This document shows, one piece after another, positions 16,828 through 31,796 of a stretch of 50,445 bases of DNA (positions are counted from its first letter, which is position 1; every line of letters starts with the position of its first letter). The stretch comes from Glaciecola sp. HTCC2999. GTDB taxonomy: Bacteria > Pseudomonadota > Gammaproteobacteria > Enterobacterales > Alteromonadaceae. The notes beneath the pieces are model-generated. The model was not told the DNA's origin. It saw only the letters and a program-made list of their open reading frames with translations, and did no database searches. Where the stretch lies: positions 36,289 to 86,733 of the forward strand of contig NZ_DS989816.1 of NCBI RefSeq assembly GCF_000155775.1. The letters are read 5' to 3'. The translations under genes and the position numbers were made by a program.

Positions 16828-17307
16828 ATGGATCCTGAATTACGAGCTCGCCTGCGATTAACTAATCCCATTCATTTTTTGGCGTTGGGTTTCGGTTCAG
16901 GTTTAATCCCAAAAGCACCAGGCACCTTTGGTTCAATGGCCGCATTACCGCTGATTTTTGTTTGTAGCCTGTTGAGTTTACCTATTTATTTCACAATGAC
17001 TGTTATCGCCTGTGTGCTGGGCATTTATATCTGCGGCAAAACCGCTGAAGATATGCAAGTTCATGATCATGGGGCGATTGTGTGGGATGAAATTGCAGGG
17101 ATGTTGTGTGTGTTTATAGCCATTCCTTTAAGCTGGGATACGGCATTAATCGGGTTTATATTATTTCGCTGGCTGGATATTCAAAAACCATTGTTGATTG
17201 GTTGGATAGATAAGCGTTTTACCGATGGGCTAGGGATCATGTTAGATGATATCGTAGCAGGCCTGATTGCCTGTGGCCTGCTTCATTTATACCTCTATTT
17301 CATTTAA
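16828..17307 (+). CDS. pgpA: Phosphatidylglycerophosphatase A
   Basis: Inner-membrane phosphatase that converts phosphatidylglycerophosphate to phosphatidylglycerol. The PgpA signature is seen as GFGSGLIPKAPGTFGSMAALPL, then VHDHGAIVWDEIAG and DGLGIMLDDIVAG; hydrophobic stretches at about 45-75 and 95-115 span the membrane. The frame is open upstream, but ATG 16828 is preferred because AAAGGTG (16813-16819) lies 8 bp before it and thiL ends at 16802. This gives 159 residues. The gene ends 3 bp before the convergent dxs, with no terminator between them. Confidence 0.94.
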   Translation: MDPELRARLRLTNPIHFLALGFGSGLIPKAPGTFGSMAALPLIFVCSLLSLPIYFTMTVIACVLGIYICGKTAEDMQVHDHGAIVWDEIAGMLCVFIAIPLSWDTALIGFILFRWLDIQKPLLIGWIDKRFTDGLGIMLDDIVAGLIACGLLHLYLYFI

Positions 17308-17310
17308 ACG

Positions 17311-19191
17311 TTAAATCTTAGCTAAACGCGCTTTAACTTGATTAACAATACCGGCAGCGTCAATCTGCAGTTGCGCATACATTTGAGCTTGAGTCGCTTG
17401 CATTATAAACTCATCGGGTAAACCACATTGCAGTAATTTGACATCAATGTCATTAGCCAATATAAACTCGGCGACTTCGCTTCCCGCGCCACCTTTGATT
17501 GCGCCATCTTCGATAGTCACAAATAAGTCATGCTCTGTCGCAGCTGAAATCAATGCTTGTTGGTCAAGCGGTTTTACAAAACGCATATCAATGAGTGTTG
17601 CATTGAGTATTTCAGCAGCTTGTTTAGCTTCAGGTAACAAGGTACCAAAGTTTAAAATGGCAACACGCTGGGTAGTCGCACTTGAAGTATTGAGTGTACG
17701 TGAGACGCCAATTGCTAAAGCGGTCATTTGTGGCTCAATAGGGACTCCCTCTCCACCACCTCGAGGATAACGAACCGCGGCAGGCTGGTTTAATTGATGG
17801 CCCGTGTAAAGCATTTGTCGACATTCATTTTCATCACCCGGTGTCATAATGACCATATTAGGAATACAGCGTAGATAACTAATATCAAAAGCACCCTGAT
17901 GTGTAGGACCATCAGCCCCGACGATCCCTGCACGATCAATCGCGAATAATACGGGTAAATTTTGGATAGCAACATCATGAATCAATTGATCATATGCTCG
18001 CTGTAGGAAGGTTGAATAAATTGCGACGACAGGTTTTAAGCCACGGATAGCCATCCCTGCAGCTAATGTTACTGCATGTTGTTCGGCAATGGCTACATCA
18101 AAATATTGTTCAGGATAGTCTTTGGAAAACTTAACCATTCCCGAGCCTTCACGCATAGCCGGGGTAATGGCATTGAGTAAAGGATCTTGCGCGGCCATAT
18201 CACATAGCCAATCACCAAAAATATCTGAATAAGAGGGCGAACTTGGTGCTGATTTAGGCAAGGTTGCTTCTTCAGGATTAAATTTAGGTACGGCATGAAA
18301 TTTAATCGGATCGTTCTCAGCAACGGTGTAGCCTTTCCCTTTTTTAGTCACGACATGCAAAATCTGAGGACCCGATATATTACGCATATTCTTGAGCGTA
18401 TCCACCATGCCTTTCACATCATGACCATCAATAGGACCGATATAATTAAACCCTAATTCTTCAAAGATGGTACCAGGGACAACCATACCTTTGATATGTT
18501 CTTCCGCTTTTGAGGCGAATTCTTTAAGAGGCGGTACCGTGGATAGGACTTTTTTACTGCCATCACGAATAGTGTTGTAAAAATTGCCGGTTAATAAACG
18601 TGCTAAATGAGAATTTAACGCACCGACATTTTCCGAAATTGACATTTCATTATCATTTAAGACCACCACGAGATCTTTAGCAATATCACCACCATGATTA
18701 AGTGCTTCGAAGGCAAGACCTGCGGTTAAGGCACCATCACCAATCACAGCTACCGTTTTACGCCCTAGTCCTTCTTTATCGGCAGCAATAGCCATACCTA
18801 CGGCTGCACTAATAGAAGTAGAGGAATGCCCTACTGCAAATGTATCGTACTGACTTTCTGGAGGCCATGGAAAAGGATGTAATCCGCCTTGCTGACGAAT
18901 GGTCGTCATCCGCTCACGTCGGTCGGTTAGAATTTTATGTGGATAAGCTTGGTGGCCTACATCCCAGATAAGTTGGTCAACAGGGGTATTATAGACATAA
19001 TGTAATGCTACAGTGAGCTCAACTGTACCTAAACCTGAGGCAAAGTGACCACTGGATTGGCTAACACTAGATAGTAAAAATTGACGAAGTTCATCTGCAA
19101 CTTGAGGAAGCTTATCTTTGGGTAACGTCCGTAATTCCTCTGGAGTATTTGCCAAAGCCAGAGTCGGGTAATGTGCTAAATCCAATGACAT
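17311..19191 (-). CDS. dxs: 1-deoxy-D-xylulose-5-phosphate synthase
   Basis: Thiamine-pyrophosphate enzyme that condenses pyruvate and glyceraldehyde 3-phosphate, the first and flux-controlling step of the non-mevalonate isoprenoid pathway. The TPP-binding segment is [18 protein letters not shown]...[10 protein letters not shown] (from about residue 151). The transketolase-like pyrimidine domain has [17 protein letters not shown] and [18 protein letters not shown], and a C-terminal transketolase domain follows. The 626 residues match E. coli (620). It is the last gene of xseB-ispA-dxs, 21 bp after ispA, and no clear Shine-Dalgarno precedes it. Confidence 0.97.
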
Positions 19192-19212
19192 ATATTAAAA
19201 AGGCTCTGTAGG

Positions 19213-20097
19213 TTAGTGGTTGCGCTTAACCAAAAAGGCGGCGAACTCGTTTAATTGTGCGGTATTGTAAGGTAATTGGTCCGATGATTGAAGTGCTTGC
19301 GTATACAATCTATCTAAATATTCCTGAGACGCTTGTAAACCAAGTAGTGCTGGGAATGTCGATTTGTTTAAATCTTGGTCTGATCCACTCGGTTTTCCTA
19401 AGGTATCACTGTCACTGGTGATATCTAGAATATCGTCTTGTACTTGGAATGCTAAACCCAAACTTCGACTAAAGGTGTGCAATAATGCTTGATGCTCTAC
19501 ATCCAGAGACGGCACTAATGCAATGACCATATCCACACAGGCACCTAGTAATGCGCCGGTTTTGAGTCGATGAAGTTGAGTTAACGTCTCCAAATCGATA
19601 TCTTGGTTGGTAAAGTGTAAATCGATCGCTTGACCGCCACACATGCCCTCATAGCCTGACGCTTTGGCTAAGATCTGAATGACCGCCACCTTTTCGCTCG
19701 CGCTCAAAACAGGATGTTGAGCTAAATGCTCAAATGCAAGGCTCTGCAAAGCATCACCCACTAATATAGCGGTACCGGGTGTATATTGAATGTGACATGT
19801 CGGCATACCTCTTCGTAGATCATCATCATCCATGTCGGGTAAATCGTCATGTACTAATGAATACGCATGAATACATTCGATTGCCACCATCAGGGGCGCT
19901 AATTTTTCTTTGGATACGCCTAATACATCGCCCACTAGACTTATCAATAGTGGGCGCATGCGTTTCCCTTGGCCTAATAGGGCGTATTCCATTGCCGCTA
20001 ATAAGTCACATGGTAAAGTAGGGTAGTGCCTGATACATTGACTCAATAATATCTGAGTGTCACTTACGACCTGAGCGTGGTATTGCTTAAAATCCAT
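19213..20097 (-). CDS. ispA: Farnesyl diphosphate synthase (geranyltranstransferase)
   Basis: Builds farnesyl diphosphate from isopentenyl and dimethylallyl diphosphates for quinones, undecaprenyl carriers and other isoprenoids. The first aspartate-rich motif is DDLPDMDDDDLRRG (about residues 84-97) and the second is QVQDDILD (about 223-230). GQGKRMRP near residue 43 binds isopentenyl diphosphate. The 294 residues are typical. The ATG overlaps the 3' end of xseB by 11 bp, indicating coupled translation. Confidence 0.96.
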   Translation of the reverse strand: MDFKQYHAQVVSDTQILLSQCIRHYPTLPCDLLAAMEYALLGQGKRMRPLLISLVGDVLGVSKEKLAPLMVAIECIHAYSLVHDDLPDMDDDDLRRGMPTCHIQYTPGTAILVGDALQSLAFEHLAQHPVLSASEKVAVIQILAKASGYEGMCGGQAIDLHFTNQDIDLETLTQLHRLKTGALLGACVDMVIALVPSLDVEHQALLHTFSRSLGLAFQVQDDILDITSDSDTLGKPSGSDQDLNKSTFPALLGLQASQEYLDRLYTQALQSSDQLPYNTAQLNEFAAFLVKRNH

Positions 20098-20350
20098 AAT
20101 CAGCGTCGTCTTCGTCCTTAGTCATGGGTTTTAGCGTCGCATTATCTTTGGTTAATATACTGACTTTTTGTTCAGCATCTTTGAGATAGGTTTGACATGC
20201 ACGCGCGAGTACAATGCCATCTTGAAATTTCGCTAACGCAACATCGAGGGACAGTTCTCCACGTTCCATTTCTTGGACAAGCTGTTCAAGCTGCTGCATT
20301 GATTGTTCAAAATTAGGAAGGTCTTTATCACGTGCTTGGTCTTGTGCCAT
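20087..20350 (-). CDS. xseB: Exodeoxyribonuclease VII small subunit
   Basis: Small accessory subunit that binds XseA to form the single-strand exonuclease ExoVII. The family helix-turn-helix pattern is plain: FEQSMQQLEQLVQEMERGEL followed by SLDVALAKFQDGIVLARACQTYL. The 87 residues are typical. It is the first gene of xseB-ispA-dxs, as in E. coli. The catalytic subunit gene xseA is not in the window. Confidence 0.95.
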   Translation of the reverse strand: MAQDQARDKDLPNFEQSMQQLEQLVQEMERGELSLDVALAKFQDGIVLARACQTYLKDAEQKVSILTKDNATLKPMTKDEDDADYGF

Positions 20351-20466
20351 TGACGACTCACTTTGTTAACGTTTGCTCATCTTAATGCCTAAGATAATAT
20401 CGTAAATGGTGAAAAAAAGCATAGTAATCTTACTAATCATTGTGACTATTAGTGAGTTTTGCACTC

Positions 20467-20508
20467 TTTAATTAAAAAGTGCACTTTATCGGATGATAAA
20501 ATGCACTT
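20467..20508 (-). terminator. Strong rho-independent terminator of the cfa-like operon
   Basis: Read on the minus strand, AAGTGCATTTTATC (20508-20495), loop ATCC and GATAAAGTGCACTT (20490-20477) form a 14-bp stem with a single G-U pair, running into TTTAATT so that five T follow the C. It lies 46 bp past the methyltransferase stop. A further copy of the TGCACT motif (20460-20465) can pair with AGTGCA (20478-20483) as an alternative hairpin. Confidence 0.85.
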
Positions 20509-20553
20509 CACAATGAACGTTATTATCTAGGATCAAGATGATCGCGACACACA

Positions 20554-21810
20554 TTACCTGAAAGTTAAATCCTCGGTATGTGCCGTTCGGCCTAAAACTA
20601 ATTGTACCGTTGAGATGGAGCGCTCTCTAAAGCCTCCTTCACAATAATTTAAGTAGTATTGCCACATCCGAGAAAAACGTTCGTCGTAGCCGTTTTCTTG
20701 AAGTGCTTCGACATTATCAAAGAAACGATCATGCCAATGAGATAACGTTTGCGCATAATCTAAACCGATATCATGTAAATCACGAATGCTAAGATCAGTG
20801 TATTTTTTGATACAACGATTAATGACATATTGCGAGGGTAAAAAACCGCCAGGGAAGATATATTTTTGAATAAAATCCACCCCGTTACTGTAACTGGCAT
20901 AGCGACGATCATCAATCGTGATCGCTTGCAGTACCATGAGCCCTTCTGGTTTTAATAAAGACGTGCATTTTTCGAAGAAATTACGTAAATACGATTTACC
21001 TACTGCCTCTATCATTTCAATAGACACGAGCTTATCGTAAGTCCCTTCTAAGGTACGGTAGTCTTGTTTTAATAAGGTGATTTTATCTTCCAAGCCTTCT
21101 TTGGCGACCCATTCTTGCGCCCAAGCATATTGCTCGTCAGATATGGTAGTTGTCGTGACGTGACAACCATAATGCTTAGCTGCATACACGGCTAAGCCAC
21201 CCCAACCAGTGCCAATCTCCATTAAATGGTCAGTGGGTTTGAGTTGCAGTTTTTCACAAATTTCTTTGAGTTTATTTTGCTGAGCTTCTGCTAAATCGGC
21301 TTCTGGGTGCGGATATACTGCTGCAGAATACATCATACTCTCATCTAAGAAATGGGTATAAAGCTGGTTACCTAGATCGTAATGCGCTTGAATATTTTTA
21401 CGCGCCTGTGCAACAGAATTACGATTAAAGAAATGCTGGATCTTATTAATAGGGAAAGTGAGCCATGCAAAACGTTTTTCCCATTTATCTAAGGTCGGTA
21501 AATTACGAGCAAATATGCGAATTACGTTGGTTAAATTTGGTGTGTTCCACATACCGTCCATATAAGTTTCACCGCTGGCGACACTGCCACCGAATAATAA
21601 ATGACGATACGCTTTTTTATCCAATATATTGACTTCAGCTTGTAATTCGCTATTCATATCACCGAATTGAGCGACCATGCCCCCATTTTCTTTGAGGGTC
21701 ATACACCCTTGTGGTAATTTTTTGAGGACATTGATAAATGCACGTTTGCACCATTTATCGATGAATGCGCCCTCTTCATGTTTAATTATTGCTTGTTCTG
21801 CTTGAGACAT
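20554..21810 (-). CDS. CFA-synthase-like SAM-dependent lipid methyltransferase (UfaM-like candidate)
   Basis: Member of the cyclopropane-fatty-acid synthase family, which transfers a methyl from S-adenosylmethionine to unsaturated chains of membrane phospholipids. The SAM site is MEIGTGWGGLAVYAA (about 197-211), and the substrate-side blocks are YDLGNQLYTHFLD and QKYIFPGGFLPS. By my alignment to E. coli Cfa, the bicarbonate-site residues Glu 239, Ile 268 and Tyr 317 are kept (E268, I297, Y352), but Cys 139 becomes Ala 163 and His 266 becomes Gln 295. It may therefore leave a methyl branch instead of closing a cyclopropane ring, as UfaM does in Rhodobacter furan fatty acid synthesis (inference). 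It is the last gene of a five-gene operon, 2 bp after the DUF1365 gene. Confidence 0.85.
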   Translation of the reverse strand: MSQAEQAIIKHEEGAFIDKWCKRAFINVLKKLPQGCMTLKENGGMVAQFGDMNSELQAEVNILDKKAYRHLLFGGSVASGETYMDGMWNTPNLTNVIRIFARNLPTLDKWEKRFAWLTFPINKIQHFFNRNSVAQARKNIQAHYDLGNQLYTHFLDESMMYSAAVYPHPEADLAEAQQNKLKEICEKLQLKPTDHLMEIGTGWGGLAVYAAKHYGCHVTTTTISDEQYAWAQEWVAKEGLEDKITLLKQDYRTLEGTYDKLVSIEMIEAVGKSYLRNFFEKCTSLLKPEGLMVLQAITIDDRRYASYSNGVDFIQKYIFPGGFLPSQYVINRCIKKYTDLSIRDLHDIGLDYAQTLSHWHDRFFDNVEALQENGYDERFSRMWQYYLNYCEGGFRERSISTVQLVLGRTAHTEDLTFR

Positions 21811-21812
21811 AC

Positions 21813-22610
21813 TTATGCTTCCTCAGATTGCGTAATGGGTTTGGAATGGCCATAAAAAGGAGTACGTTTTATAAATAGCTTTAACGCCTCCCAATAAATG
21901 CCACCAACCGTTTTTAACGTCATACTTGGTATACGTCGTTTAGCGATAGATAGATTAGCTTGGTTTAATGGCTGACGATATAAATCAATACTCGCGACCA
22001 TATGTTTAATTTCTTTGTGGCACGTTAATGATAACTTAATGGCATCATTGGGTTGTGGGATATGCCATTGATATTGCATATCCATTGGATTAAAAGGCGA
22101 AACATGAAATGCTTTTGGCGTATCTTCCTGAGCACTTAAATCAATCAAATAATAATGTCGTTCATGCCAGGGTGTATTACTGACCTCCGCAAGCATGAAG
22201 GTATATTGTTGTGATTGGGGATCTTGGATGTAGTAAAAATTAACAGGGCTAAAGTACAGGTTCAGCATCCTTGTTTGCCCGAGAAAATACACATCACCTA
22301 TGATTTCTTTGGTAATCGGGGTGGGCAAGGTTAAACGTAACTCGTTAGCTTTATGTAGCACTTCTTCTTCGAGCGATAGGTTCTGTTCGTTAAGGTAATC
22401 GGTGCGACGAAATTCTAATAGCCCTTTGGTATTAAGATTAAAACCAGGGATCTCAGATAATGCCCGAAGCTCTTTGAGCTTGAGCCAAAACAAATAAATA
22501 TCATATTTAAATTCATGACGCGTCGGGGTAAAGCGCTTATGCATCACAGAGCCTTGGTAAATTGCACTTTCTAGCGATGTATTGTGCGGCTGAATGTTGA
22601 CTTGGTTCAA
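21813..22610 (-). CDS. DUF1365 family protein
   Basis: Member of the DUF1365 (COG3496) family, recognised by IYQGSVMHKRFTPTRHEFKYDIYLFWLKL at the N terminus and by YFSPVNFYYIQD, EVSNTPWHERHYYL and FHVSPFNPMDMQYQWHI in the middle. The 265 residues contain no obvious membrane segment or signal peptide. Family members are nearly always found between a flavin amine-oxidase-like gene and a CFA-synthase-like gene, as here, so a role in modifying membrane fatty acids is likely. Its activity is not visible from sequence. The ATG overlaps the stop of the FAD gene (ATGA). Confidence 0.85.
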   Translation of the reverse strand: MNQVNIQPHNTSLESAIYQGSVMHKRFTPTRHEFKYDIYLFWLKLKELRALSEIPGFNLNTKGLLEFRRTDYLNEQNLSLEEEVLHKANELRLTLPTPITKEIIGDVYFLGQTRMLNLYFSPVNFYYIQDPQSQQYTFMLAEVSNTPWHERHYYLIDLSAQEDTPKAFHVSPFNPMDMQYQWHIPQPNDAIKLSLTCHKEIKHMVASIDLYRQPLNQANLSIAKRRIPSMTLKTVGGIYWEALKLFIKRTPFYGHSKPITQSEEA

Positions 22611-23887
22611 AGCGTTGCTCCAAAACGTTCACAGACATCTAATGCACTACGAACTCCGTCCTCATGGAATCCGTTATACCAATAAGCCCCACAAAAATGT
22701 AGATTATCTTGGCCACAAATACGTTTACGCTCACCTTGCGCTTTGACCATATCTGGGCTGAATTGCGGGTGGGCATAATGAAAGGTATTAATGATTTTAG
22801 CAGGATCAATTTCAGCGGTATTATTCAAGGTCACACAAAACGTGTGCTCAGTTTGTAAGCGCTGTAGGATATTCATATTATAGGTGACTGAAGCAGGTTG
22901 TAATGCTTCATTAGCATCCCCTTTGATCAAATAATTCCAGCTGGCCCAGGCGAGTTCACGTTCAGGTAATACATTCACATCCGTATGCAGCACGACTTCA
23001 TTCATTGCATATTCGATATTACCTAATACTTGATGATGTGCTTGAGTGGGTTCATGTAGCATCGCTAAAGCTTGATCAGAATGACAAGCAAAAATAACCT
23101 CATCAAAATCAGCCGATTGGGTGTTATCTGCCGCGCCAAATGTAACCGAGTAACCTGTGCTATCAGTCAATTTTAAGACACGTTGCACGGGAGCGTTGAG
23201 TTTAATTTGATCAGCAAAGGATTGGGTCAAGGGGGCAATATACTCACGCGAACCACCAATAATGGTATACCACTGGGGGCGGTCAGTGATGTTTAATAAT
23301 CCATGGTTATTGAAAAACTGTAAGAAAAACGTCAATGGGAATGACTTGGAGTCTTCAACGGACATTGACCATATTGCTGCGCACATTGGCAAAATATAGT
23401 TTTGACTAAAATCATCACTCAAGTTGTGATGTTCAATGTAATCAAACAAGGTCATGCCTGCTTTAGCGTGTGTTTGTGCGTCTTCGGATTTACATAATTT
23501 ATTGAACTTTAAAATGTCTAAGACAATGCGCCAAAATCTTGGACGCAATAAATTTCTGCGTTGCGCGAATAAGGAATTGAGTGTGTTGCCATTATATTCT
23601 AATTTGGCGGCACGATTTTTCACACTAAAACTCATTTCGGTAGGCTGAGCATTCACCCCGATCATACTCATGAGCTTATTAAAATTGGGGTAGGTCCAAT
23701 CATTAAATACAATAAAACCGGTGTCAATCGCATAATGCACGTCGTCGATATACACATCTTTTGTAGCAGTATGGCCGCCGATGTAGTCGTTTGCTTCAAA
23801 CACGGTAATGTCGTGGTCTTTGTTGAGTAAATATCCGCATGTCAGGCCGGAAATACCGCTTCCAATAATCGCAATACGCTTTTTCAT
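22607..23887 (-). CDS. FAD-dependent oxidoreductase, amine-oxidase-like (COG2907)
   Basis: Flavoprotein with an N-terminal dinucleotide-binding motif IAIIGSGISGLTCGYLL and the following FEANDYIGGHTAT. The C terminus (QDNLHFCGAYWYNGFHEDGVRSALD) completes the FAD site of the flavin amine-oxidase/desaturase fold. The 426 residues are typical of COG2907. In Rhodobacter, related genes in the RpoE/ChrR regulon take part in methyl- and furan-fatty-acid formation (UfaD desaturation and UfaO oxygen insertion). Which of those steps this protein would catalyse I cannot say. It overlaps both neighbours by 4 bp. Confidence 0.87.
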   Translation of the reverse strand: MKKRIAIIGSGISGLTCGYLLNKDHDITVFEANDYIGGHTATKDVYIDDVHYAIDTGFIVFNDWTYPNFNKLMSMIGVNAQPTEMSFSVKNRAAKLEYNGNTLNSLFAQRRNLLRPRFWRIVLDILKFNKLCKSEDAQTHAKAGMTLFDYIEHHNLSDDFSQNYILPMCAAIWSMSVEDSKSFPLTFFLQFFNNHGLLNITDRPQWYTIIGGSREYIAPLTQSFADQIKLNAPVQRVLKLTDSTGYSVTFGAADNTQSADFDEVIFACHSDQALAMLHEPTQAHHQVLGNIEYAMNEVVLHTDVNVLPERELAWASWNYLIKGDANEALQPASVTYNMNILQRLQTEHTFCVTLNNTAEIDPAKIINTFHYAHPQFSPDMVKAQGERKRICGQDNLHFCGAYWYNGFHEDGVRSALDVCERFGATL

Positions 23888-24636
23888 GAATCTCTCTTTT
23901 GTTGTTCAACTGGTGCGGCGGGAGGTTGCCGCATCGAAAGGCATAACTTGTGTTGTATAAATTCAGGTAGTGCATCTAAGCAACGCAATAGTAAACTGAA
24001 ACGAGTTGGGAAATAGACACTAGCTTGGCGGCTGGCTAATCCATTTAAGATATCCTGAGCCGCTTCTTCAACCTCGATACTCATAGGCATAGGGAAATCA
24101 TTTTTATCCGTCAGTGGCGTCTTAACAAACCCAGGTGATATGGTTTGGACTTGGATACCTTTTGCGGCGAAATCAACAGCAAAACTTTTGGCCATATAAT
24201 GCAATGCGGCTTTACTCGCACCATAAGCTTGGCTTCTGGCAAAGGGTAATAGGCGCGCAAGGCTATCGACAAATACCAGTTTATTACCTGCGACTAATTT
24301 AGGGCTGAGAGCTTCGATAACATTGACGACCCCAAAGACATTCGCATCAAACACACGTTGAAACATCGCCGCGTCGATTGCATCCACATCGACATATTCA
24401 CAAGTACCAGCATTGAGCAACACGATATCGCACTCAACTTCGGCTAAAGCTGTTTTAGTTGCCTGCAAATCGGTGACATCAAATTGGCAGGTCGATATAT
24501 TGGGTTGTTGTTCAAGTATTGCTAATTTGTCTTTATTACGGCCACAAGCAATCACAGCATAGCCATTTTTTGCTGCTAATAATGCGACAGCTTCACCAAT
24601 ACCCGAGGTCGCACCGGTCACTAATAAACGCTTCAT
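23884..24636 (-). CDS. Short-chain dehydrogenase/reductase
   Basis: Classical SDR with the NAD(P)-binding motif VTGATSGIGEAVALLAA near the N terminus, the NAG motif in LLNAGTCEY, and the catalytic tetrad region Ser in VDSLARLLP followed by YGASKAALHYMAK. The start at 24636 (MKRLLVTGAT) is chosen over upstream in-frame codons because it makes an ATGA overlap with the preceding gene, giving 250 residues. Substrate is unknown. Membership in the lipid-modifying operon suggests a carbonyl or hydroxyl on a fatty chain, but that is inference. Confidence 0.85.
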   Translation of the reverse strand: MKRLLVTGATSGIGEAVALLAAKNGYAVIACGRNKDKLAILEQQPNISTCQFDVTDLQATKTALAEVECDIVLLNAGTCEYVDVDAIDAAMFQRVFDANVFGVVNVIEALSPKLVAGNKLVFVDSLARLLPFARSQAYGASKAALHYMAKSFAVDFAAKGIQVQTISPGFVKTPLTDKNDFPMPMSIEVEEAAQDILNGLASRQASVYFPTRFSLLLRCLDALPEFIQHKLCLSMRQPPAAPVEQQKRDS

Positions 24637-25076
24637 GCGCGCATACCTGATTTGATTTTGTTCACCACCCATTTTAAGAGTGGGACATGTTCATAAACCA
24701 TTTGCCCCATGTCGTAATAATCTTGGTGAAAATAGATTTTGTCATCACGAATTTTAAGTAAGGTAATGCCATCGACATGTATGAGATTACCACTATTAAG
24801 TTTAGGGGTGGCAAAAGACATCGTCCAGGTGACCGTAAAAGATGTGTCTTGGAGAGGTTCTGGTGTTTTATGAGGTAATATTTGATGAATTACGAAATGA
24901 GATGAAGTGGCACCAGTTAATAAGTTATCAAAGTAATTATGCAGTGTATTCAAACCATGATGGGTACCCACAGGATCAATCAAAGTGATATCTTCACTAT
25001 AAATATCAGGGAGTTGAGAGATATTGTCTGGTGATAGTTCTTGGTAGAATGTTGTAAAACGTTCAATCGCAGTCAT
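24633..25076 (-). CDS. NTF2/SnoaL-like domain protein, first gene of ECF-controlled operon
   Basis: Small (147-residue) protein of the nuclear-transport-factor-2-like cone fold, suggested by IERFTTFYQELSPDNISQLPDIYSEDITLIDPVG at the N terminus and a beta-rich remainder (FVIHQILP, FTVTWTMSFATP, GITLLKIRDDKIYFHQDYYDMGQM). Such proteins serve as small-molecule-binding pockets or isomerases; no catalytic residues can be assigned. It lies about 30 bp after the TGATCC-N18-TAAATA promoter and heads the NTF2-SDR-FAD-DUF1365-methyltransferase operon. Confidence 0.78.
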   Translation of the reverse strand: MTAIERFTTFYQELSPDNISQLPDIYSEDITLIDPVGTHHGLNTLHNYFDNLLTGATSSHFVIHQILPHKTPEPLQDTSFTVTWTMSFATPKLNSGNLIHVDGITLLKIRDDKIYFHQDYYDMGQMVYEHVPLLKWVVNKIKSGMRA

Positions 25077-25105
25077 ACATACTTATATTGAGATAATAAT
25101 TAATA

Positions 25106-25135
25106 TATTTACATCTATCTATAATAGACGGATCA
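25106..25135 (-). promoter_or_regulatory. ECF (RpoE/ChrR-type) promoter for the lipid operon
   Basis: On the minus strand, TGATCC (25135-25130) is followed after exactly 18 bp by TAAATA (25111-25106). The Rhodobacter sphaeroides RpoE consensus, as I recall it, is TGATCC-N18-TAAGA. The start codon at 25076 would lie about 20-25 bp downstream of the expected transcription start. Confidence 0.7.
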
Positions 25136-25219
25136 ACAAAAAATTACTCAATTATTTTTAAACTTTAGTCTAGTTCGCATCGTATATTTATGGGTGTGAT
25201 ATTAATTAGGCATTTTATT

Positions 25220-25789
25220 GTGGTTACCTTACCTCTTTTTCCATTATCTGCGCATGTTCTTCCCGGCGGAAGAATGTCGTTACGCATATTTGAACCTCGC
25301 TATACTCGTATGGTGAAAGAAGCATGTGCTTCTGAATCAGGATTCGTCATTTGCATGTTAAATGCAAAAGGCGATAAGACGACAAACGAGCATATCCATT
25401 CGATTGGTACCTATGTCAGTGTGGTTGATTTTAATATGCTGGATGATGGTTTGTTAGGGATTACGGTGGAAGGCGTAAAATGTGTCTCAATTAGCAATAT
25501 TCGAATCGAAAAAGATGAGTTACGCATTGCTGATTGTGAGATTATTTCGCCATGGCAATTTAATCTTGAGAAAGATGCCTTGTTCCCAATGGATATAAAA
25601 CTCAAAGAGATTTTTGACAAATATCCTGAGGTCAATAGTTTATATCAAGAAACTAGATTCGATGACCCAATTTGGGTAATTAACCGCTGGCTGGAACTCC
25701 TTCCCGTTGATGCGGCACAAAAGCAAGCATTTCTAGCTGAAAGTGATTGCTCCAAAATTGTACAATACCTAACAAAACTGGTAGAGTAA
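25220..25789 (+). CDS. Stand-alone LON substrate-binding-domain protein
   Basis: Contains only the N-terminal substrate-binding (PUA-like) domain of Lon protease, with no ATPase or protease domain. The diagnostic stretch is LPLFPLSAHVLPGGRMSLRIFEPRYTRMV, and the rest (VVDFNMLDDGLLGITVEGVKC) fits the same fold. GTG 25220 is preferred because TTAGG lies 9 bp upstream and the protein then begins directly at VVTLPLFPLS (189 residues). The ATG at 25190 has no ribosome-binding site. It is divergent from the lipid operon and 59 bp upstream of the ECF sigma gene, so it may belong to the same stress module. Its function is unknown. Confidence 0.82.
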   Translation: MVTLPLFPLSAHVLPGGRMSLRIFEPRYTRMVKEACASESGFVICMLNAKGDKTTNEHIHSIGTYVSVVDFNMLDDGLLGITVEGVKCVSISNIRIEKDELRIADCEIISPWQFNLEKDALFPMDIKLKEIFDKYPEVNSLYQETRFDDPIWVINRWLELLPVDAAQKQAFLAESDCSKIVQYLTKLVE

Positions 25790-25793
25790 TTTA

Positions 25794-25824
25794 TGATCTT
25801 AATAATATTCACGCCGTATATATA
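25794..25824 (+). promoter_or_regulatory. Possible autoregulatory ECF promoter of the sigma-anti-sigma pair
   Basis: TGATCT (25794-25799) matches five of six bases of TGATCC, and a TATATA run begins 17 or 19 bp downstream (25817-25824). It sits in the 59-bp gap before the sigma gene. Autoregulation is common for this sigma group, but the -10 match is loose. Confidence 0.4.
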
Positions 25825-25848
25825 ATAAACGTTAATAAGGTAGTGAAT

Positions 25849-26463
25849 ATGCTCGTTGGAATTTCTTTGGAAAACAAATTTACGAACACCAGCAAGCCAA
25901 AAGACTGCGCAGAAGAGATGTCAGCACTCCTAATGGAAGTTGCTGCAGAGCGTTGTAAACGTTCTTATGCCAAAGTATTTGGATATTTTGCACCTCGTCT
26001 ACGTTCATATGCCTTGAAACAAATGGGCAATGAAGCGTTAGCGATGGAGTTAGTCCAAGATACCATGACGAATGTGTGGCAAAAAGCACATTTGTTCAAT
26101 TCAGAAAAGGGTTCCCCGTCAACATGGATATTTACCATCGCCCGTAATATCCGTTTTGATATGTTACGAAAATTGCAGAATCGAAAAGAAGATATTTGTT
26201 CTGATGATTTGTGGCCTGTTTTATGTGAACAGACACCTGATCAAAATGAAGTTTCTTTAGATCAGCAAGTAACACTACAACAAGTAGGCCAGCTGTTTAA
26301 CAAATTACCTGATAAACAAAAGGCCGTGATTGAAGCCATCTATATTGATGGAAAGTCGCAGCAAGAAGTTGCAGATCAACTTACTATTCCGTTAGGAACA
26401 GTAAAAAGTAGGACTCGATTAGCACTGCAGCGATTAAAGGATATGTTAGAAGACCATGATTAA
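25849..26463 (+). CDS. ECF sigma factor, RpoE/ChrR (ECF11) type
   Basis: Alternative sigma factor of the group that responds to singlet oxygen. Region 2 is seen as YFAPRLRSYALKQMGNEALAMELVQDTMTNVWQ with the DNA-melting segment STWIFTIARNIRFDMLRK. Region 4 is FNKLPDKQKAVIEAIYIDGKSQQEVADQL followed by IPLGTVKSRTRLALQRLK. The frame is open upstream, but ATG 25849 with TAAGG (25836-25840) before it is the best start, giving 204 residues. Its last 8 bp overlap the anti-sigma gene. It probably drives the divergent lipid operon. Confidence 0.88.
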   Translation: MLVGISLENKFTNTSKPKDCAEEMSALLMEVAAERCKRSYAKVFGYFAPRLRSYALKQMGNEALAMELVQDTMTNVWQKAHLFNSEKGSPSTWIFTIARNIRFDMLRKLQNRKEDICSDDLWPVLCEQTPDQNEVSLDQQVTLQQVGQLFNKLPDKQKAVIEAIYIDGKSQQEVADQLTIPLGTVKSRTRLALQRLKDMLEDHD

Positions 26464-27118
26464 TTACCACCCAACTGACAAGCAACTACGTCAGTTTGCT
26501 GAAGGCAATATTTCTTCAGCGTTAGCGTTAGTTGCAGCTGCTCACTGTGATGTTTGTTCCAAATGCCAAGCTAAAGTCGATGATGTCAATCTAGAATTGG
26601 CAAGTGATATCGAGAATATTAAAGCGCATACATTTAGCGACCCAGCATTTGATAAAATGCTAGCGAGCATCACACAATTACCTGTATTAGATGCACCGGT
26701 ACAAAAATCACCGCGCATTGAGTTGGATGGTCGTTTTTTTGATGTCCCTAGACCATTGCAACGTTTTGTGAAAAAGACTGGAAATTGGTCAAAGCTGTTA
26801 GGTAAAGTGTGGCAAGCGCCTGTTGATTTAGGTGAAGCTGGGATGGCCCATTTTATTTATATGGAAAAAGGGGGGCGTGTTCCTGAGCATACGCACCGAG
26901 GTACTGAATTTACCCTAGTGGTGAATGGTGAGTTTTCTGATGGTCTAGCTGATTATGATTCAGGGGATTTGATTGTGATGGATGATGAGCATATTCATTC
27001 GCCGCATTCAAATGCAGATGATGGTTGTTTAGTGTTTTCGATTGTCGATAAACCATTGCATTTCACATCAGGAATTGCACGATTACTAAATCCATTTAGT
27101 CACTTATTTTTTAAATAA
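26456..27118 (+). CDS. chrR: ChrR-type zinc anti-sigma factor with cupin domain
   Basis: Binds and inactivates the adjacent ECF sigma factor until singlet oxygen or related stress releases it. The N-terminal zinc anti-sigma motif is H30-x3-C34-x2-C37 (AAHCDVCSKC). The C-terminal cupin domain, from about residue 90, carries candidate metal ligands H145, H147, E151 and H181 (PEHTHRGTEFTLVVNGEF, HIHSPHS). These correspond well to the R. sphaeroides ChrR ligands. The length is 220 residues. It overlaps the sigma gene by 8 bp, so the pair is made in coupled amounts, and a bidirectional terminator follows 14 bp later. Confidence 0.9.
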   Translation: MINYHPTDKQLRQFAEGNISSALALVAAAHCDVCSKCQAKVDDVNLELASDIENIKAHTFSDPAFDKMLASITQLPVLDAPVQKSPRIELDGRFFDVPRPLQRFVKKTGNWSKLLGKVWQAPVDLGEAGMAHFIYMEKGGRVPEHTHRGTEFTLVVNGEFSDGLADYDSGDLIVMDDEHIHSPHSNADDGCLVFSIVDKPLHFTSGIARLLNPFSHLFFK

Positions 27119-27132
27119 GTCCAAATGTAGTC

Positions 27133-27174
27133 AAAAAAAACGCGTTAAACTAAATTAGTTAACGCGTTTTTTTT
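27133..27174. terminator. Bidirectional terminator between chrR and bamD
   Basis: A run of eight A leads into CGCGTTAAACTAA, then TTAGTTAACGCG and a run of eight T. The stem pairs throughout except for one bulged A. The A and T tracts make it work for both the plus-strand chrR message and the minus-strand bamD message. Confidence 0.92.
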
Positions 27175-27212
27175 GGTCGTTAAGATAGTATATCTGAACT
27201 TATATTAACAAC

Positions 27213-27974
27213 TTATAAAATAAACTCACTCTCTGGGTAGTTAAGTTTCAAAATTTTAATCGCATTCGCTTTTAGTTGGTCCAGACCTAACTGGTCATAG
27301 CATGACACCATGATTTCTAAAGCTTCTTGAACCATGCCTGTATCGGGATAGTATTCTAATACATACTGACCACGGTTAGCGGCTGCTACGTAAGCTTCTC
27401 GACGCATGTAGAAACGCGCAATAGCGATTTCATATTTAGCTAACCGAGTTTTAATATAAACCATGCGTTTTTGTGCATCGGTGGCATATTTACTTTCAGG
27501 AAACGTATCTAATAACTGTCTAAAGTCATTAAATGCTTCACGTGATGCAGAAGGATCACGATCTGAGCGATCAATATTAAATAATGATTGGAATAAATTA
27601 TCATCCATTTCCATATTCGTTAAACCGCGCATGAAATACGCATAATCAATGTCTTTATGATTTGGGTTTAAACGGATGAAACGATCAATAGTCGCTAATG
27701 CTTGTGCACTGTCACCGCTTTTATAATAACTATAAATTAAATCCAGTTGAACTTGGTGTGATAGTTCACCAAATGGATAGCGAGAATCTAAATCGCTCAA
27801 TATTTCAGCAGCCCCACCAAAATTACCATTCTCCATGGCTGTTTTAGCTTTGGCATAGATAGCCTGAGGGCCTTGTAATTCGACCTCTTCGATTGCTTTT
27901 TCTGGCGCTGAGCTACAACCGCCTAACGCGATTAAACCAATTAAGCTCAGGGCGTATAATCTTATTTTCATCAA
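27213..27974 (-). CDS. bamD: Outer membrane assembly lipoprotein BamD
   Basis: Essential lipoprotein of the BAM complex that folds beta-barrel proteins into the outer membrane. The signal peptide ends in the lipobox LIALGGCSS with the lipidated Cys at residue 20. Five tetratricopeptide-like repeats follow (YAKAKTAMENGNFGGAAEIL, YSYYKSGDSAQALATIDRFI, and so on). The 253 residues are close to E. coli BamD (245). It diverges from rluD across 118 bp, the same bamD/rluD arrangement as in E. coli. Confidence 0.96.
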   Translation of the reverse strand: MMKIRLYALSLIGLIALGGCSSAPEKAIEEVELQGPQAIYAKAKTAMENGNFGGAAEILSDLDSRYPFGELSHQVQLDLIYSYYKSGDSAQALATIDRFIRLNPNHKDIDYAYFMRGLTNMEMDDNLFQSLFNIDRSDRDPSASREAFNDFRQLLDTFPESKYATDAQKRMVYIKTRLAKYEIAIARFYMRREAYVAAANRGQYVLEYYPDTGMVQEALEIMVSCYDQLGLDQLKANAIKILKLNYPESEFIL

Positions 27975-28043
27975 CGAAGTAACCTTTATTATTGATTGTC
28001 TGGTGTATACAACTCGTATTATTGCACACCTTTGTGTGGAAAC

Positions 28044-28052
28044 TGATATAAT
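28044..28052 (+). promoter_or_regulatory. Extended -10 promoter of rluD
   Basis: TGATATAAT combines a perfect TATAAT with an upstream TGn, 40 bp before the rluD start. TTGCAC (28022-28027) is a -35 candidate, though 19 bp away. It lies in the bamD/rluD divergent gap. Confidence 0.55.
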
Positions 28053-28092
28053 TGTATTTTATTTATCACAGTTTTTCTAAATTAATCACTTT

Positions 28093-29085
28093 ATGTCTCA
28101 ATCTCAATCTCAGCAACAAACTATTTCGCTCACCGGTATTGTCGATCAAACTCAATTTGATAAACGATTAGATCAGGTATTAGCCGATTTGTTCCCCGAA
28201 TATTCGCGCAGTAAGTTAAAAGAATGGATCTTAGCGGGTTTTGTTAAGGTCGATGATGAAGTGGTCACTGTCGCCCGTCAAAAAATGCAAGGTGATGAAC
28301 AAATTGATATTCATGCAGTGATAGCCGTACAAGTATTAAATACGCCACAAAATATCGAATTGGATATTGTATTTGAAGATGAACATGTATTGGTGATCAA
28401 TAAACCGGCAGGCTTAGTCGTTCACCCTGGCGCCGGAAATGCGGATGGTACAGTGTTAAATGCGTTGTTGGCGCATCACCCTGAGATTGAAAATATTCCG
28501 CGTGCTGGGATTGTGCATCGCCTTGATAAAGATACAACCGGTTTAATGGTCGTTGCCAAAACCCTCATTGCACAAACATACCTGGTGGAACAATTACAAA
28601 CCCGAGTCATGAGTCGTGAATATGAAGCATTAGTCATGGGCACTATGGTGGCCGGTGGCTTTGTAGATGAGCCAATTGGTCGTCATCCGACGAAACGCAC
28701 ATCAATGGCTGTTAGAGCAACGGGCAAAGAAGCGACAACGCATTATCGTATTAAAGAAAAATTCCGAGCTCATACTCACCTGCGTCTAAAATTAGAAAGT
28801 GGCCGTACCCACCAAATTCGTGTGCATATGGCACATATCCGTCACCCTTTGGTGGGTGATCAGTTATATGGGGGACGCCCACGCATGCCTAAAGCCGCTA
28901 GTGAAGCATTTATGCAAGCTTTGCGTAACTTTAAACGTCAAGCGCTACATGCGGCACAGCTTTCTTTTGCACATCCAATTACTGAGGATTGGTTAACGTT
29001 TAATGCACCATTACCTGATGATTTTGTGCAATTACTAGAAGATGTGCGTGCCGATACGGATATTCATGGTATCGCTGAAGATTAA
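28093..29085 (+). CDS. rluD: 23S rRNA pseudouridine(1911/1915/1917) synthase
   Basis: Converts three uridines in helix 69 of 23S rRNA to pseudouridine, important for 50S maturation. The N-terminal S4 RNA-binding domain is FDKRLDQVLADLFPEYSRSKLKEWILAGFVKVD (about residues 18-75). The catalytic motif is IVHRLDKDTTGLMVVAKT, in which the Asp of HRLD is the nucleophile, and the C-terminal GRTHQIRVHMAHIRHPLVGD motif follows. The length is 330 residues. In many relatives yfiH/pgeF lies between rluD and clpB; here clpB comes next. Confidence 0.96.
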   Translation: MSQSQSQQQTISLTGIVDQTQFDKRLDQVLADLFPEYSRSKLKEWILAGFVKVDDEVVTVARQKMQGDEQIDIHAVIAVQVLNTPQNIELDIVFEDEHVLVINKPAGLVVHPGAGNADGTVLNALLAHHPEIENIPRAGIVHRLDKDTTGLMVVAKTLIAQTYLVEQLQTRVMSREYEALVMGTMVAGGFVDEPIGRHPTKRTSMAVRATGKEATTHYRIKEKFRAHTHLRLKLESGRTHQIRVHMAHIRHPLVGDQLYGGRPRMPKAASEAFMQALRNFKRQALHAAQLSFAHPITEDWLTFNAPLPDDFVQLLEDVRADTDIHGIAED

Positions 29086-29151
29086 CCTTGTCATTAGTTT
29101 GCGCTAGATCAACTCTCTGTCACATTGTTGGTTTTTTATTCAATTTAGATA

Positions 29152-29179
29152 TTGAATAACATGGTCTCGTACCCACTTA
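29152..29179 (+). promoter_or_regulatory. Possible sigma-32 heat-shock promoter of clpB
   Basis: TTGAATA (29152-29158), 13 bp, then CCCACTTA (29172-29179) resembles the heat-shock consensus CTTGAAA-N(11-16)-CCCCATNT, 37 bp before clpB. It is an imperfect match, but it is the best promoter in the 131-bp gap and fits the known heat induction of clpB. Confidence 0.45.
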
Positions 29180-29216
29180 ATATTTATCACAAGATGAATA
29201 ATTGAAGAGACCTGAG

Positions 29217-31796
29217 ATGAGACTTGATAAATGTACAACTAAATTTCAATCTGCAATTTCTGACGCCCAATCACTAGCACTTGGGCGTGACCATCAATAT
29301 ATTGAGCCTGAGCATATTGCTACTGCGTTGTTAAATCAACAAGGTGGCAGTGTCCGCACCATCTTGCAACAGACCGGCATAAATTTAAATACGTTACGCT
29401 CCGGATTGGCTCAAGCGTTAGAAAAACTACCACGGGTTAAAGGCGCATCTGGCGATGTTCAGTTTAGTCGTGACACTATCGCATGTTTCAACTTAACCGA
29501 TAAAATTGCACAACAACACAACGATCAGTTTATTTCTTCAGAGTTGTTTTTATTGGCGGCTTTAGAGACGAAATCGCGTTTTGCTGATTTACTCGTCAGT
29601 GTCGGGGTGACTAAAAAAGCCCTGCAAACTGCGATTGATAATGTGCGGGCAGGCCAAAATGTCAATGATCCTAATGCCGAAGACGTTCGTGAAGCCCTTG
29701 AAAAATATACCAGTGATTTAACTGAACGTGCTGAACAAGGCAAACTCGATCCTGTCATTGGTCGTGATGATGAAATCCGACGCACTATCCAAGTATTACA
29801 GCGTCGCACGAAAAACAATCCCGTATTAATCGGTGAGCCAGGGGTCGGTAAAACAGCCATCGCTGAAGGACTCGCACAGCGTATTATTAATGGAGAGGTG
29901 CCAGAAGGGCTTAAACATAAACGTGTACTGTCATTAGATATGGGAGCGTTAATTGCGGGGGCTAAATACCGCGGTGAATTTGAAGAACGTCTTAAAGCTG
30001 TGTTAAACGAGTTATCCAAAGAAGAAGGTAATGTCATTTTATTTATCGATGAATTACACACAATGGTGGGCGCTGGCAAAGGTGATGGAGCCATGGATGC
30101 CGGCAATATGCTAAAACCTGCGCTAGCACGTGGTGAACTTCATTGTGTTGGTGCTACAACGTTAGATGAATATCGTCAATACATTGAAAAAGATGCGGCG
30201 CTTGAAAGACGTTTTCAAAAAGTATTAATCGATCAGCCAACAGTAGAAGATACCATTGCCATACTACGGGGTTTGAAAGAACGTTATGAGCTTCATCATT
30301 CCGTGGACATTACTGATCCTGCTATCGTGGCGGCAGCGAGTTTATCTCACCGTTATATAGCGGATCGTCAACTACCTGACAAAGCCATTGATTTGATTGA
30401 TGAAGCCGCTTCGAGTATCCGTATGCAGATAGATTCAAAGCCAGAAGAAATGGATAAGTTGGATCGTCGCATCATACAATTAAAACTCGAAGAGCAAGCC
30501 TTAGCTAAAGAAAGTGATGAAGCAAGTCTGAAACGTTTAGATATTATTCAGGTTGAACGTGAGACAGCAGAATCACGTTATAAAGCCTTAGAAACCATCT
30601 GGCTAACAGAAAAAGATGCCATGCAAGGGGCGCAAGGGATCAAAGCTCAACTAGAACAAGCTAAACAAGATATGGATATTGCGCGTCGGGCAGGGGATTT
30701 AAACCGTATGTCAGAATTACAATACGGGCGTATTCCAGCACTCGAGCAACAGTTAGAAAATGCTAATACAGCGGATGAAGTGACGCCACAATTAGTGAAA
30801 AATAAAGTGACAGATGTTGAAATTGCAGATGTATTATCACGCTGGACAGGGATCCCCGTGGCCAAAATGCTCGAGGGAGAACGTGATAAATTGGTTCGGA
30901 TGGAAACCGTCTTACATGACCGTGTCATCGGCCAAGATGAAGCGGTGAAATGTGTGTCCAATGCCATTCGTCGCTCACGTGCCGGCTTAGCGGATCCAGC
31001 TAAACCAATAGGATCATTTTTATTTCTGGGACCCACAGGTGTGGGTAAAACAGAATTATGTAAATCGTTGGCGGATTTCTTATTCGATTCCCAAGATTCG
31101 ATGGTGCGCATTGATATGTCGGAGTTTATGGAAAAACATTCAGTGGCTCGACTTGTCGGAGCCCCTCCTGGTTATGTTGGTTATGAAGAGGGCGGATATT
31201 TAACCGAAGCAGTTCGTCGTAAGCCATATTCAGTGATTTTGTTAGATGAAGTCGAAAAAGCACACCCAGATGTGTTTAATATCTTACTTCAAGTGCTTGA
31301 TGATGGCCGTCTGACTGATGGTCAAGGGCGAACAGTGGATTTTAAAAACACAGTGATTATCATGACGTCAAACTTAGGTTCTGATGTGATCCAAGAACAG
31401 GCTCATCAACAGGATTATGATGCAATGAAAGCCAGTGTCATGAACACAGTAGCGATGCATTTTAGACCTGAATTCATTAACCGAGTTGATGATATTGTGG
31501 TGTTTCATCCTTTAGCTTTGGACAATATTAAATCGATCGCGAAAATACAATTGCAGGGTTTACGTCAGCGCTTGCAAGATAAAGGATTTGAACTGAGTAT
31601 TTCTGGTGCTGCCTTAAACAAAATTGCCGATGTGGGGTTTGATCCTGTTTTTGGTGCTCGACCGTTGAAGCGAGCGATTCAACAGGAATTAGAAAACCCT
31701 CTGGCCACGCAACTATTATCGTTGCGCGACAAGCAGTTTGATAAGGTTCAAGTGGATGTAAGTGATGGTCACTTAACTATCGAGTTTACTCGATGA
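29217..31796 (+). CDS. clpB: ATP-dependent disaggregase ClpB
   Basis: Hexameric AAA+ chaperone that, with DnaK, threads proteins out of aggregates. The N domain is the double Clp repeat (about 1-145). NBD1 has Walker [10 protein letters not shown]; the coiled-coil middle domain spans about 400-530 ([21 protein letters not shown]). NBD2 has Walker [10 protein letters not shown] and the pore motif in [13 protein letters not shown]. An upstream TTG (29202) is in frame, but ATG 29217 with GAAGAG before it gives the standard N terminus [14 protein letters not shown] and 859 residues. Its 3' end overlaps the convergent mnhG by 24 bp inside a palindrome. Confidence 0.97.

Follow-up and report, generated by a model that had tools for sequence, protein, structure and literature searches.

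A predicted furan fatty acid operon of the ufaM–ufaD–ufaO type beside an RpoE/ChrR-type switch in Glaciecola sp. HTCC2999

The stretch of DNA analysed here (the window: 50,445 nucleotides (nt) of Glaciecola sp. HTCC2999, contig NZ_DS989816.1, positions 36,289 to 86,733) carries two divergent transcription units between its positions 20554 and 27118, with eight genes in total according to the open reading frame (ORF) list and Pfam (Table 1). On the minus strand, read from 25076 to 20554, lie genes for an NTF2-like/SnoaL protein, a short-chain dehydrogenase/reductase (SDR), a flavin adenine dinucleotide (FAD) amine-oxidase-like protein, a DUF1365 protein, and a methyltransferase resembling cyclopropane fatty acid (CFA) synthase; on the plus strand, a Lon-N-domain gene (hereafter the Lon-domain gene) is followed by genes for an extracytoplasmic function (ECF) sigma factor and for ChrR. 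An earlier note on this DNA had described five translationally coupled genes next to a sigma/anti-sigma pair, and this description was borne out—the ORFs were found in place, their domains pass Pfam cut-offs (the basis of all domain assignments here), and the neighbours among the five are joined by overlaps of 4 nt or a gap of 2 nt. The SDR/FAD junction is an ATGA overlap, as is the NTF2/SDR junction provided that the SDR starts at 24636; FAD and DUF1365 genes overlap by TTGA, sigma and ChrR genes by ATGATTAA, and the 2-nt gap separates the DUF1365 gene from the methyltransferase gene. What the note's inventory overlooked was an eighth gene, the Lon-domain gene at 25190–25789, which separates the lipid operon from the sigma gene and places the divergent promoter region at about 25077–25189. 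The sigma factor probably starts at 25849 rather than at the mechanical TTG 25747, since that ATG and the codons following it are conserved in 7/7 aligned loci.

Table 1. Genes and promoter sites between positions 20554 and 27118 of the window (SAM, S-adenosylmethionine; aa, amino acids)
Feature	Position	Strand	Evidence
CFA-synthase-like SAM methyltransferase, UfaM-type, 418 aa	20554..21810	-	Pfam CMAS 288.6 bits; UfaM-like group 98/98
DUF1365 protein, UfaO-type, 265 aa, TTG start	21813..22610	-	Pfam DUF1365 228.4 bits
FAD amine-oxidase-like protein, UfaD-type, 426 aa	22607..23887	-	Pfam Amino_oxidase 74.9 bits and NAD_binding_8
SDR, RSP1087-type by position, 250 aa plus stop from ATG 24636	23884..24636 (mechanical ORF to 24672)	-	adh_short 132.9 bits
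NTF2-like/SnoaL protein, 147 aa, related to limonene-epoxide hydrolases	24633..25076	-	SnoaL_2 45.2 bits
Putative RpoE/ChrR-type promoter TGATCC-N16-TGTAAA	25108..25135	-	31 nt before NTF2-like gene; score 12.0
Degenerate site TAAACT-N16-CGTATA, in register, before Lon-domain gene	25159..25186	+	Alignment with relatives
Lon substrate-binding-domain protein, SO_1987-type regulon member	25190..25789 (or from GTG 25220)	+	LON_substr_bdg 75.4 bits
Putative RpoE/ChrR-type promoter TGATCT-N15-CGTATA of sigma gene	25794..25820	+	Score 9.6
ECF sigma factor, RpoE (ECF11) type, 204 aa	25849..26463	+	Sigma70_r2 58.9, Sigma70_r4 49.4; NF008890 342 > 284
ChrR anti-sigma factor with zinc and cupin ligands, 220 aa	26456..27118	+	Cupin_7 37.9; TIGR02451 182.2 > 124.5

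The window methyltransferase falls below the cut-off of PRK11705, the NCBIfam equivalog model for Cfa (307.9 < 400), and its residues at five positions, in E. coli Cfa numbering, are A139, E239, Q266, I268, and Y317. In E. coli Cfa, bicarbonate is held by Glu239, His266, and Tyr317 (PMC11387697; here and below, all published work other than PMC7380195 is cited from excerpts of its text); the window enzyme retains Glu239 and Tyr317 but has Gln for His266, leaving the classical bicarbonate triad incomplete. Across the 91 CMAS sequences that we gathered for comparison, Glu239 and Tyr317 are conserved in all rows compared, whereas position 266 is Gln in 69/74 rows adjoining FAD/DUF1365 genes and in 7/7 enzymes that are the only full CMAS of a Rhodobacter-like genome; E. 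coli Cfa has His there, as do 9/9 other solo rows—a solo set that is not a random sample, because only the better-scoring matches in the order-wide search were given loci. A tree of 73 of the 91 rows (18 near relatives left out) has one side of 58 rows, comprising 51 operon-linked and 7 Rhodobacter-like sequences, that stands apart from E. coli-type Cfa with support of 98/98; nine of the ten His266 rows group together, and the long-branched His row L126 lies outside both groups (L and G numbers are our labels for loci and genomes). Genome G037 has both kinds of enzyme, an operon copy with Gln266 (L042) and a solo copy with His266 (L138). By tree and residues, the window methyltransferase belongs to the UfaM group and not to E. 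coli-type Cfa, and we rejected a classical Cfa identity for it. The change from His266 to Gln may serve as a one-residue marker for sorting the many "cyclopropane synthase" annotations from UfaM-type enzymes, although a cotton enzyme, taken up below, breaks the rule. The remaining 5 of the 74 operon-linked rows represent a second, distantly related CMAS paralogue within these gene neighbourhoods. They share about 27% identity with the window enzyme, carry His266 and Phe268, and lie beside or near the operon in L066, L070, L072, L077, and L080, whose hosts are Actinomycetota, rhizobia, and one unplaced bacterium.

The operon itself is widely kept. A DUF1365 gene was found in 31/40 genomes searched, the source genome included, and in all 63 loci fetched by DUF1365 (57 distinct, six being the same DNA twice) the FAD gene adjoins it; the methyltransferase accompanies both in 61/63, the exceptions being two Devosia loci. 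Among 33 named loci, 19 from gammaproteobacteria and 11 from other bacteria give a view upstream of the FAD gene, and L059, L068, and L072 show too little; a gene was scored as absent when no BLAST match to the window protein reached E <= 1e-4. The NTF2–SDR pair lies directly upstream of the FAD gene in 17 of these 19 gammaproteobacterial loci and in none of the 11 others, and in the Halieaceae loci L062 and L064 a sigma gene takes its place. Sigma and ChrR genes are both in view in 20/33 named loci, including those of the alphaproteobacteria L071, L074, and L076, and a Lon-domain gene accompanies rpoE–chrR in 10/33; such a gene shares a regulon or response with rpoE–chrR in Shewanella (PMC4336711) and Aeromonas (PMC10012899). 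Conservation across classes and phyla answers the possibility that the gene order arose by chance. Within the DUF1365 family, 19 aligned relatives share 22 invariant columns. A model of the window protein (21813–22610) is a predicted barrel with invariant His24 and His152 (19/19 rows), for which ywiB, nitrobindin, and fatty-acid-binding barrels tie as weak matches; the cofactor and reductant of UfaO are stated to be unknown (PMC7380195).

For Aeromonas salmonicida, the order of the five genes has already been published, with no function attached. There, AXA69_RS13645–RS13670 follows the same NTF2–SDR–FAD–DUF1365–cfa order as the window, and the cluster was down-regulated with ChrR and the Lon-domain gene in a riboflavin experiment; the authors state that there is no experimental information on its function (PMC10012899). 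In that genome, the ChrR and Lon-domain genes are located elsewhere than the cluster, which is followed by DUF2878, whereas the window operon sits beside sigma–ChrR. The RpoE2 regulon of Shewanella oneidensis has the same promoter class and a Lon-domain member as in the window, its promoters preceding rpoE2, the Lon-domain gene SO_1987, and the operon holding cfa SO_3379 (PMC4336711), but that operon lies away from sigma–ChrR and is part of a long operon with phrB. The ufaM–ufaD–ufaO clusters of Halomonas sp. YLGW01 and Rhodopseudomonas palustris CGA009 keep the three core genes consecutive, as in the window; unlike the window, the excerpted descriptions name no NTF2–SDR pair, and R. palustris has FufM for the dimethyl product. 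Furan acids have been reported from Shewanella putrefaciens (Shirasaka 1995, 1997; cited in PMC3528120 and PMC7380195), and among the matches listed in open-licence literature, mostly titles and abstract starts, we found none that assigned the gammaproteobacterial NTF2–SDR operon to furan acids.

UfaM, UfaD, and UfaO have been shown to act in vivo, UfaD and UfaO also in vitro (PMC7380195). With Rhodobacter sphaeroides ChrR as bait in genome sets of 3, 385, and 325, the best match was 70% identical, and seven alphaproteobacterial genomes (67–70%) therefore stand in for R. sphaeroides. In all seven proxies, sigma–ChrR is divergent from FAD–DUF1365, as it is from the operon in the window; the only full CMAS gene lies elsewhere, an SDR gene lies downstream in the operon, and the stretches taken gave no NTF2 match. 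The downstream order is MFS_2–DUF3833–SDR in L152 (Pfam on three genes), and in L153 the SDR comes directly after MFS_2. Proxy ORFs with clean starts measure about 250, 406, 184, and 243–246 aa, which fits the lengths printed for RSP1090 (250 aa), RSP1089 (402), RSP1088 (186), and RSP1087 (245) (PMC7380195). Like the R. sphaeroides operon RSP1091 (ufaD)–RSP1090 (ufaO)–RSP1089–RSP1088–RSP1087, then, that of the window holds UfaD/UfaO-family genes and an SDR (the latter seen in the proxies), and its methyltransferase falls, via the proxies, in the same UfaM group as R. sphaeroides ufaM (RSP2144). It differs in that it ends with the ufaM-type gene, lacks MFS_2 and DUF3833 genes, and is led by the NTF2-like gene, and in that a Lon-domain gene precedes the sigma gene.

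The earlier note had counted both the SDR and the NTF2-like protein as steps beyond the described pathway. For the SDR this has to be corrected, given that an SDR occupies the RSP1087 position in 7/7 Rhodobacter-like operons and that deleting RSP1087 left the furan profile of R. sphaeroides unchanged (PMC7380195), which makes it a pathway companion not needed for furan there. The window SDR has the motifs TGATSGIG at residue 7 and YGASK at 138; its nearest NCBIfam model, shared with three gammaproteobacterial SDRs, is PRK06101, and that of three Rhodobacter-like SDRs is PRK07024, all scoring below the respective cut-off. The NTF2-like protein is a real addition, as the note had held, and one common to the 17/19 gammaproteobacterial loci given above. 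Both its fold and its sequence profile match limonene-1,2-epoxide hydrolase; in the fold comparison, dehydrochlorinases, ketosteroid isomerases, and designed proteins tie with epoxide hydrolases, so that the fold singles out no epoxide hydrolase and the lead comes from the profile match. The catalytic Arg-x-Asp pair of limonene-1,2-epoxide hydrolase is, we take it, Arg99/Asp101 of the Rhodococcus enzyme. Set beside these hydrolases, XimE, and MonBI/MonBII, the NTF2-like protein has Trp84 and Met86 facing the hydrolase Arg and Asp, both invariant (17/17), and it shares its fold with epoxide-opening cyclases. A scheme could be drawn in which, in gammaproteobacteria, UfaO converts the methylated diene to a vinyl epoxide and the NTF2-like protein—as a remodelled epoxide hydrolase, with a MonB-type Asp34 kept and the hydrolytic Arg/Asp lost—closes the ring by intramolecular opening of this epoxide, giving a dihydrofuran; dehydrogenation of the dihydrofuran by the SDR would then yield the furan and regain the reducing equivalents required by UfaO. 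We regard this scheme as very doubtful.

The switch at this locus is, by ChrR family score, ligands, sigma match, and promoters, assigned to the RpoE–ChrR (ECF11) type, in agreement with the note's reading of a sigma/anti-sigma pair with a zinc motif and cupin ligands. ChrR scores above the cut-off of NCBIfam TIGR02451 (182.2 vs 124.5), and its residues H5, H30, C34, and C37, which we take to be the zinc site, and H145, H147, E151, and H181, presumably the cupin ligands, are all present and align with R. sphaeroides ChrR (2z2s). The best solved match of the sigma factor is R. sphaeroides RpoE (2q1z, E=6.4e-33; the next is 8.8e-16), and its NF008890 score (342 > 284) was computed on the longer ORF. 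For promoter scoring, we derived a matrix from the five published RpoE2 sites of S. oneidensis (PMC4336711). The lipid-operon site TGATCC-N16-TGTAAA at 25135–25108 reaches 12.0 bits, a score attained by 0/200 shuffles, and the sigma-gene site TGATCT-N15-CGTATA 9.6 bits, with a shuffle fraction of 0.035. Sites of the TGATCC-N16-CGTAAT type thus precede both the sigma gene and its target operon, each imperfect (TGATCT with spacer 15 in the former, TGTAAA in the latter), and both hold their register in Glaciecola and Opacimonas relatives, where much of the surrounding sequence differs. The -10 part drifts among these relatives, the NTF2 sites of L052 and L053 scoring just 8.1 and 7.7; the Lon-domain genes of L049 and L051–L054 are also preceded by scored sites.

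On these grounds, we think it likely that the five-gene operon beside the ChrR switch, with its members of the UfaM, UfaD, and UfaO families, turns cis-vaccenoyl phospholipid chains into methylated furan fatty acids under singlet oxygen or like stress. Damage to zinc-bound ChrR would free RpoE, which would then transcribe its own gene and, from the site at 25135–25108, the operon; the UfaM-type enzyme would methylate 18:1 to 11Me-12t-18:1 without cyclopropane closure, the UfaD-type flavoprotein would desaturate this to 11Me-10t,12t-18:2, and the UfaO-type DUF1365 protein would form the furan by adding oxygen taken from O2. For the furan itself the SDR can probably be spared, its role being accessory, and the likely part of the NTF2-like protein is to bind or convert an oxygenated intermediate. 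The earlier note had proposed that a related membrane lipid is made here in response to singlet oxygen; of this, a ufaM–ufaD–ufaO type operon beside an RpoE/ChrR switch stands (by tree, residues, context, and promoter), and the furan product and the singlet-oxygen signal stay predictions. We judge the pathway assignment to be probably correct and for the most part unsurprising: with related gene sets in Rhodobacter-like and many other bacteria, the locus is a well-supported but expected member of a known system. More pointed are the clade and residue test, the correction on the SDR, and the kinship of the NTF2-like protein with epoxide hydrolases. Furan fatty acids, which scavenge radicals, are found in bacteria, plants, and fish. 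Full tests of genes for their synthesis were found only for two alphaproteobacteria (PMC7380195), with one step in Halomonas (excerpts of PMC12089945). If the prediction is true, the Shewanella furan-acid record would be tied to a concrete, conserved gammaproteobacterial operon and promoter, and the unexplained NTF2-like gene would have a testable role.

Several observations weigh against this reading, on the side of the chemistry as on that of the switch. Gln266 is shared by descent on the CMAS tree and is a clade marker, no proof of chemistry, and percent identity to the window methyltransferase is 39% for E. coli Cfa and 36–40% for the Rhodobacter-like UfaM proxies; we rejected it as a test of UfaM versus Cfa because it does not separate the two classes. 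The UfaO-type protein is just 22–25% identical to the Rhodobacter-like proteins, and the Rhodobacter comparison as a whole was made with seven proxy genomes, not with the R. sphaeroides proteins themselves. Cyclopropanes are made by cotton enzymes in which an FAD oxidase domain is fused to a CFA domain, among them GhCPS1, where Gln stands in for H266 and Ser replaces C139 (PMC3132707), and an E. coli strain with Halomonas ufaM, which made 11-methyloctadec-12-enoate, showed cyclic acids too (PMC12089945). Together with the result that no second full-length CMAS was found in the source genome (assembly of 2.56 Mb, 82% complete), this could point to cyclopropane or cyclopropene acids, or to 11-methyl-octadecenoate as the end point, as what the operon produces instead of a furan acid. 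We nevertheless consider that outcome quite improbable, as the DUF1365 (UfaO family) gene is kept in the window and in 31/40 genomes searched, the Agrobacterium oxidase/CFA pair gave no cyclopropane in yeast (PMC3132707), and 11Me-18:1 is made by both Halomonas (PMC12089945) and Rhodobacter UfaM (PMC7380195). It also seems unlikely that the NTF2-like protein and the SDR divert or finish the pathway, with the simple furan as an intermediate and another oxygenated acid (e.g., reduced, hydroxylated, or ring-modified) as the main product. Their position directly before the core in 17/19 gammaproteobacterial loci vs 0/11 others would suit such a role, as would the profile match to epoxide hydrolases and the fold common to epoxide-opening cyclases; on the other hand, the SDR RSP1087 is dispensable for furan in R. 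sphaeroides (PMC7380195), the Halieaceae loci L062 and L064 are without both genes at this place, and the furan acid itself is reported from S. putrefaciens (PMC3528120).

As for the switch, the S. oneidensis rpoE2 mutant was, in the excerpted text, tested with H2O2 and paraquat, not with singlet oxygen, and was sensitive to both (PMC4336711), and in Vibrio cholerae excerpted reports link ChrR to blue light and photolyase to nitrosative stress. That the signal is peroxide, nitrosative, or general light stress in place of singlet oxygen is nonetheless somewhat unlikely, considering that the zinc and cupin ligands of ChrR are all retained and that a model peptide of the ChrR zinc site reacts rapidly with singlet oxygen (PMC6432622). 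The promoter evidence is uneven as well: the -10 element TGTAAA departs from the published CGTAAT at two places, the Lon-domain site of the window (TAAACT-N16-CGTATA) is degenerate, and no convincing scored site was found upstream of the Lon-domain genes of the window, L048, L050, and L055. The stretches scanned likewise lacked a convincing site before either gene of L060, before the L054, L056, and L071 sigma genes, and before the L064 and L071 FAD genes. In 13 related genomes, the strict motif TGATCC-N16-CGTAW gave 7 matches vs 22 for a backward-read control, that is, it was rarer; without genome-wide enrichment, a single match carries weight only if it is conserved or in register. A scan of the source genome for TGATC-N16-18-CGTAA gave 15 matches vs 8 for the backward-read control, and few of the 15 sit just upstream of an ORF, so that most may be chance.

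Two observations on the motif lie outside the locus. A site of the RpoE/ChrR type, TGATCY-N16-CGTA, was seen 135–140 nt upstream of a proteorhodopsin-like gene (identity read from the protein sequence) in 3/3 close orthologues, which are 89–100% identical and score 12.3–20.6: L009/L157 in the source genome (G000:C7:73487), L158 (G008), and L159/L168 (G002). The five other proteorhodopsin-like orthologues, about 60% identical, have no comparable site (best 6.7–7.8). In G002, the proteorhodopsin site is the sole genome match to TGATCC-N16-CGTAW, the backward-read control having 3 in that genome. Such a site would place proteorhodopsin under the same RpoE/ChrR switch, a link absent from the titles and abstract starts among the matches listed in our literature search. 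The same motif occurs about 42 nt before a gene starting MPELPEVEVSRQG in L165 (G006) and L166 (G003), two genomes of one genus; from its sequence, this gene reads as mutM/fpg (8-oxoguanine repair).

Around the locus itself, a carotenoid-desaturase role for the FAD protein was considered and rejected, as no carotenoid gene was seen by eye among the ORF translations of 17000–31000. The locus is flanked on one side by xseB, ispA, and dxs, the latter two being isoprenoid genes that we take to belong to an ordinary xseB–ispA–dxs cluster, and on the other by genes for a lipoprotein and a pseudouridine synthase (names read from translations, with no family search). Its nearest named counterpart is a Glaciecola locus, with a DUF1365 protein 87% identical to that of the window.

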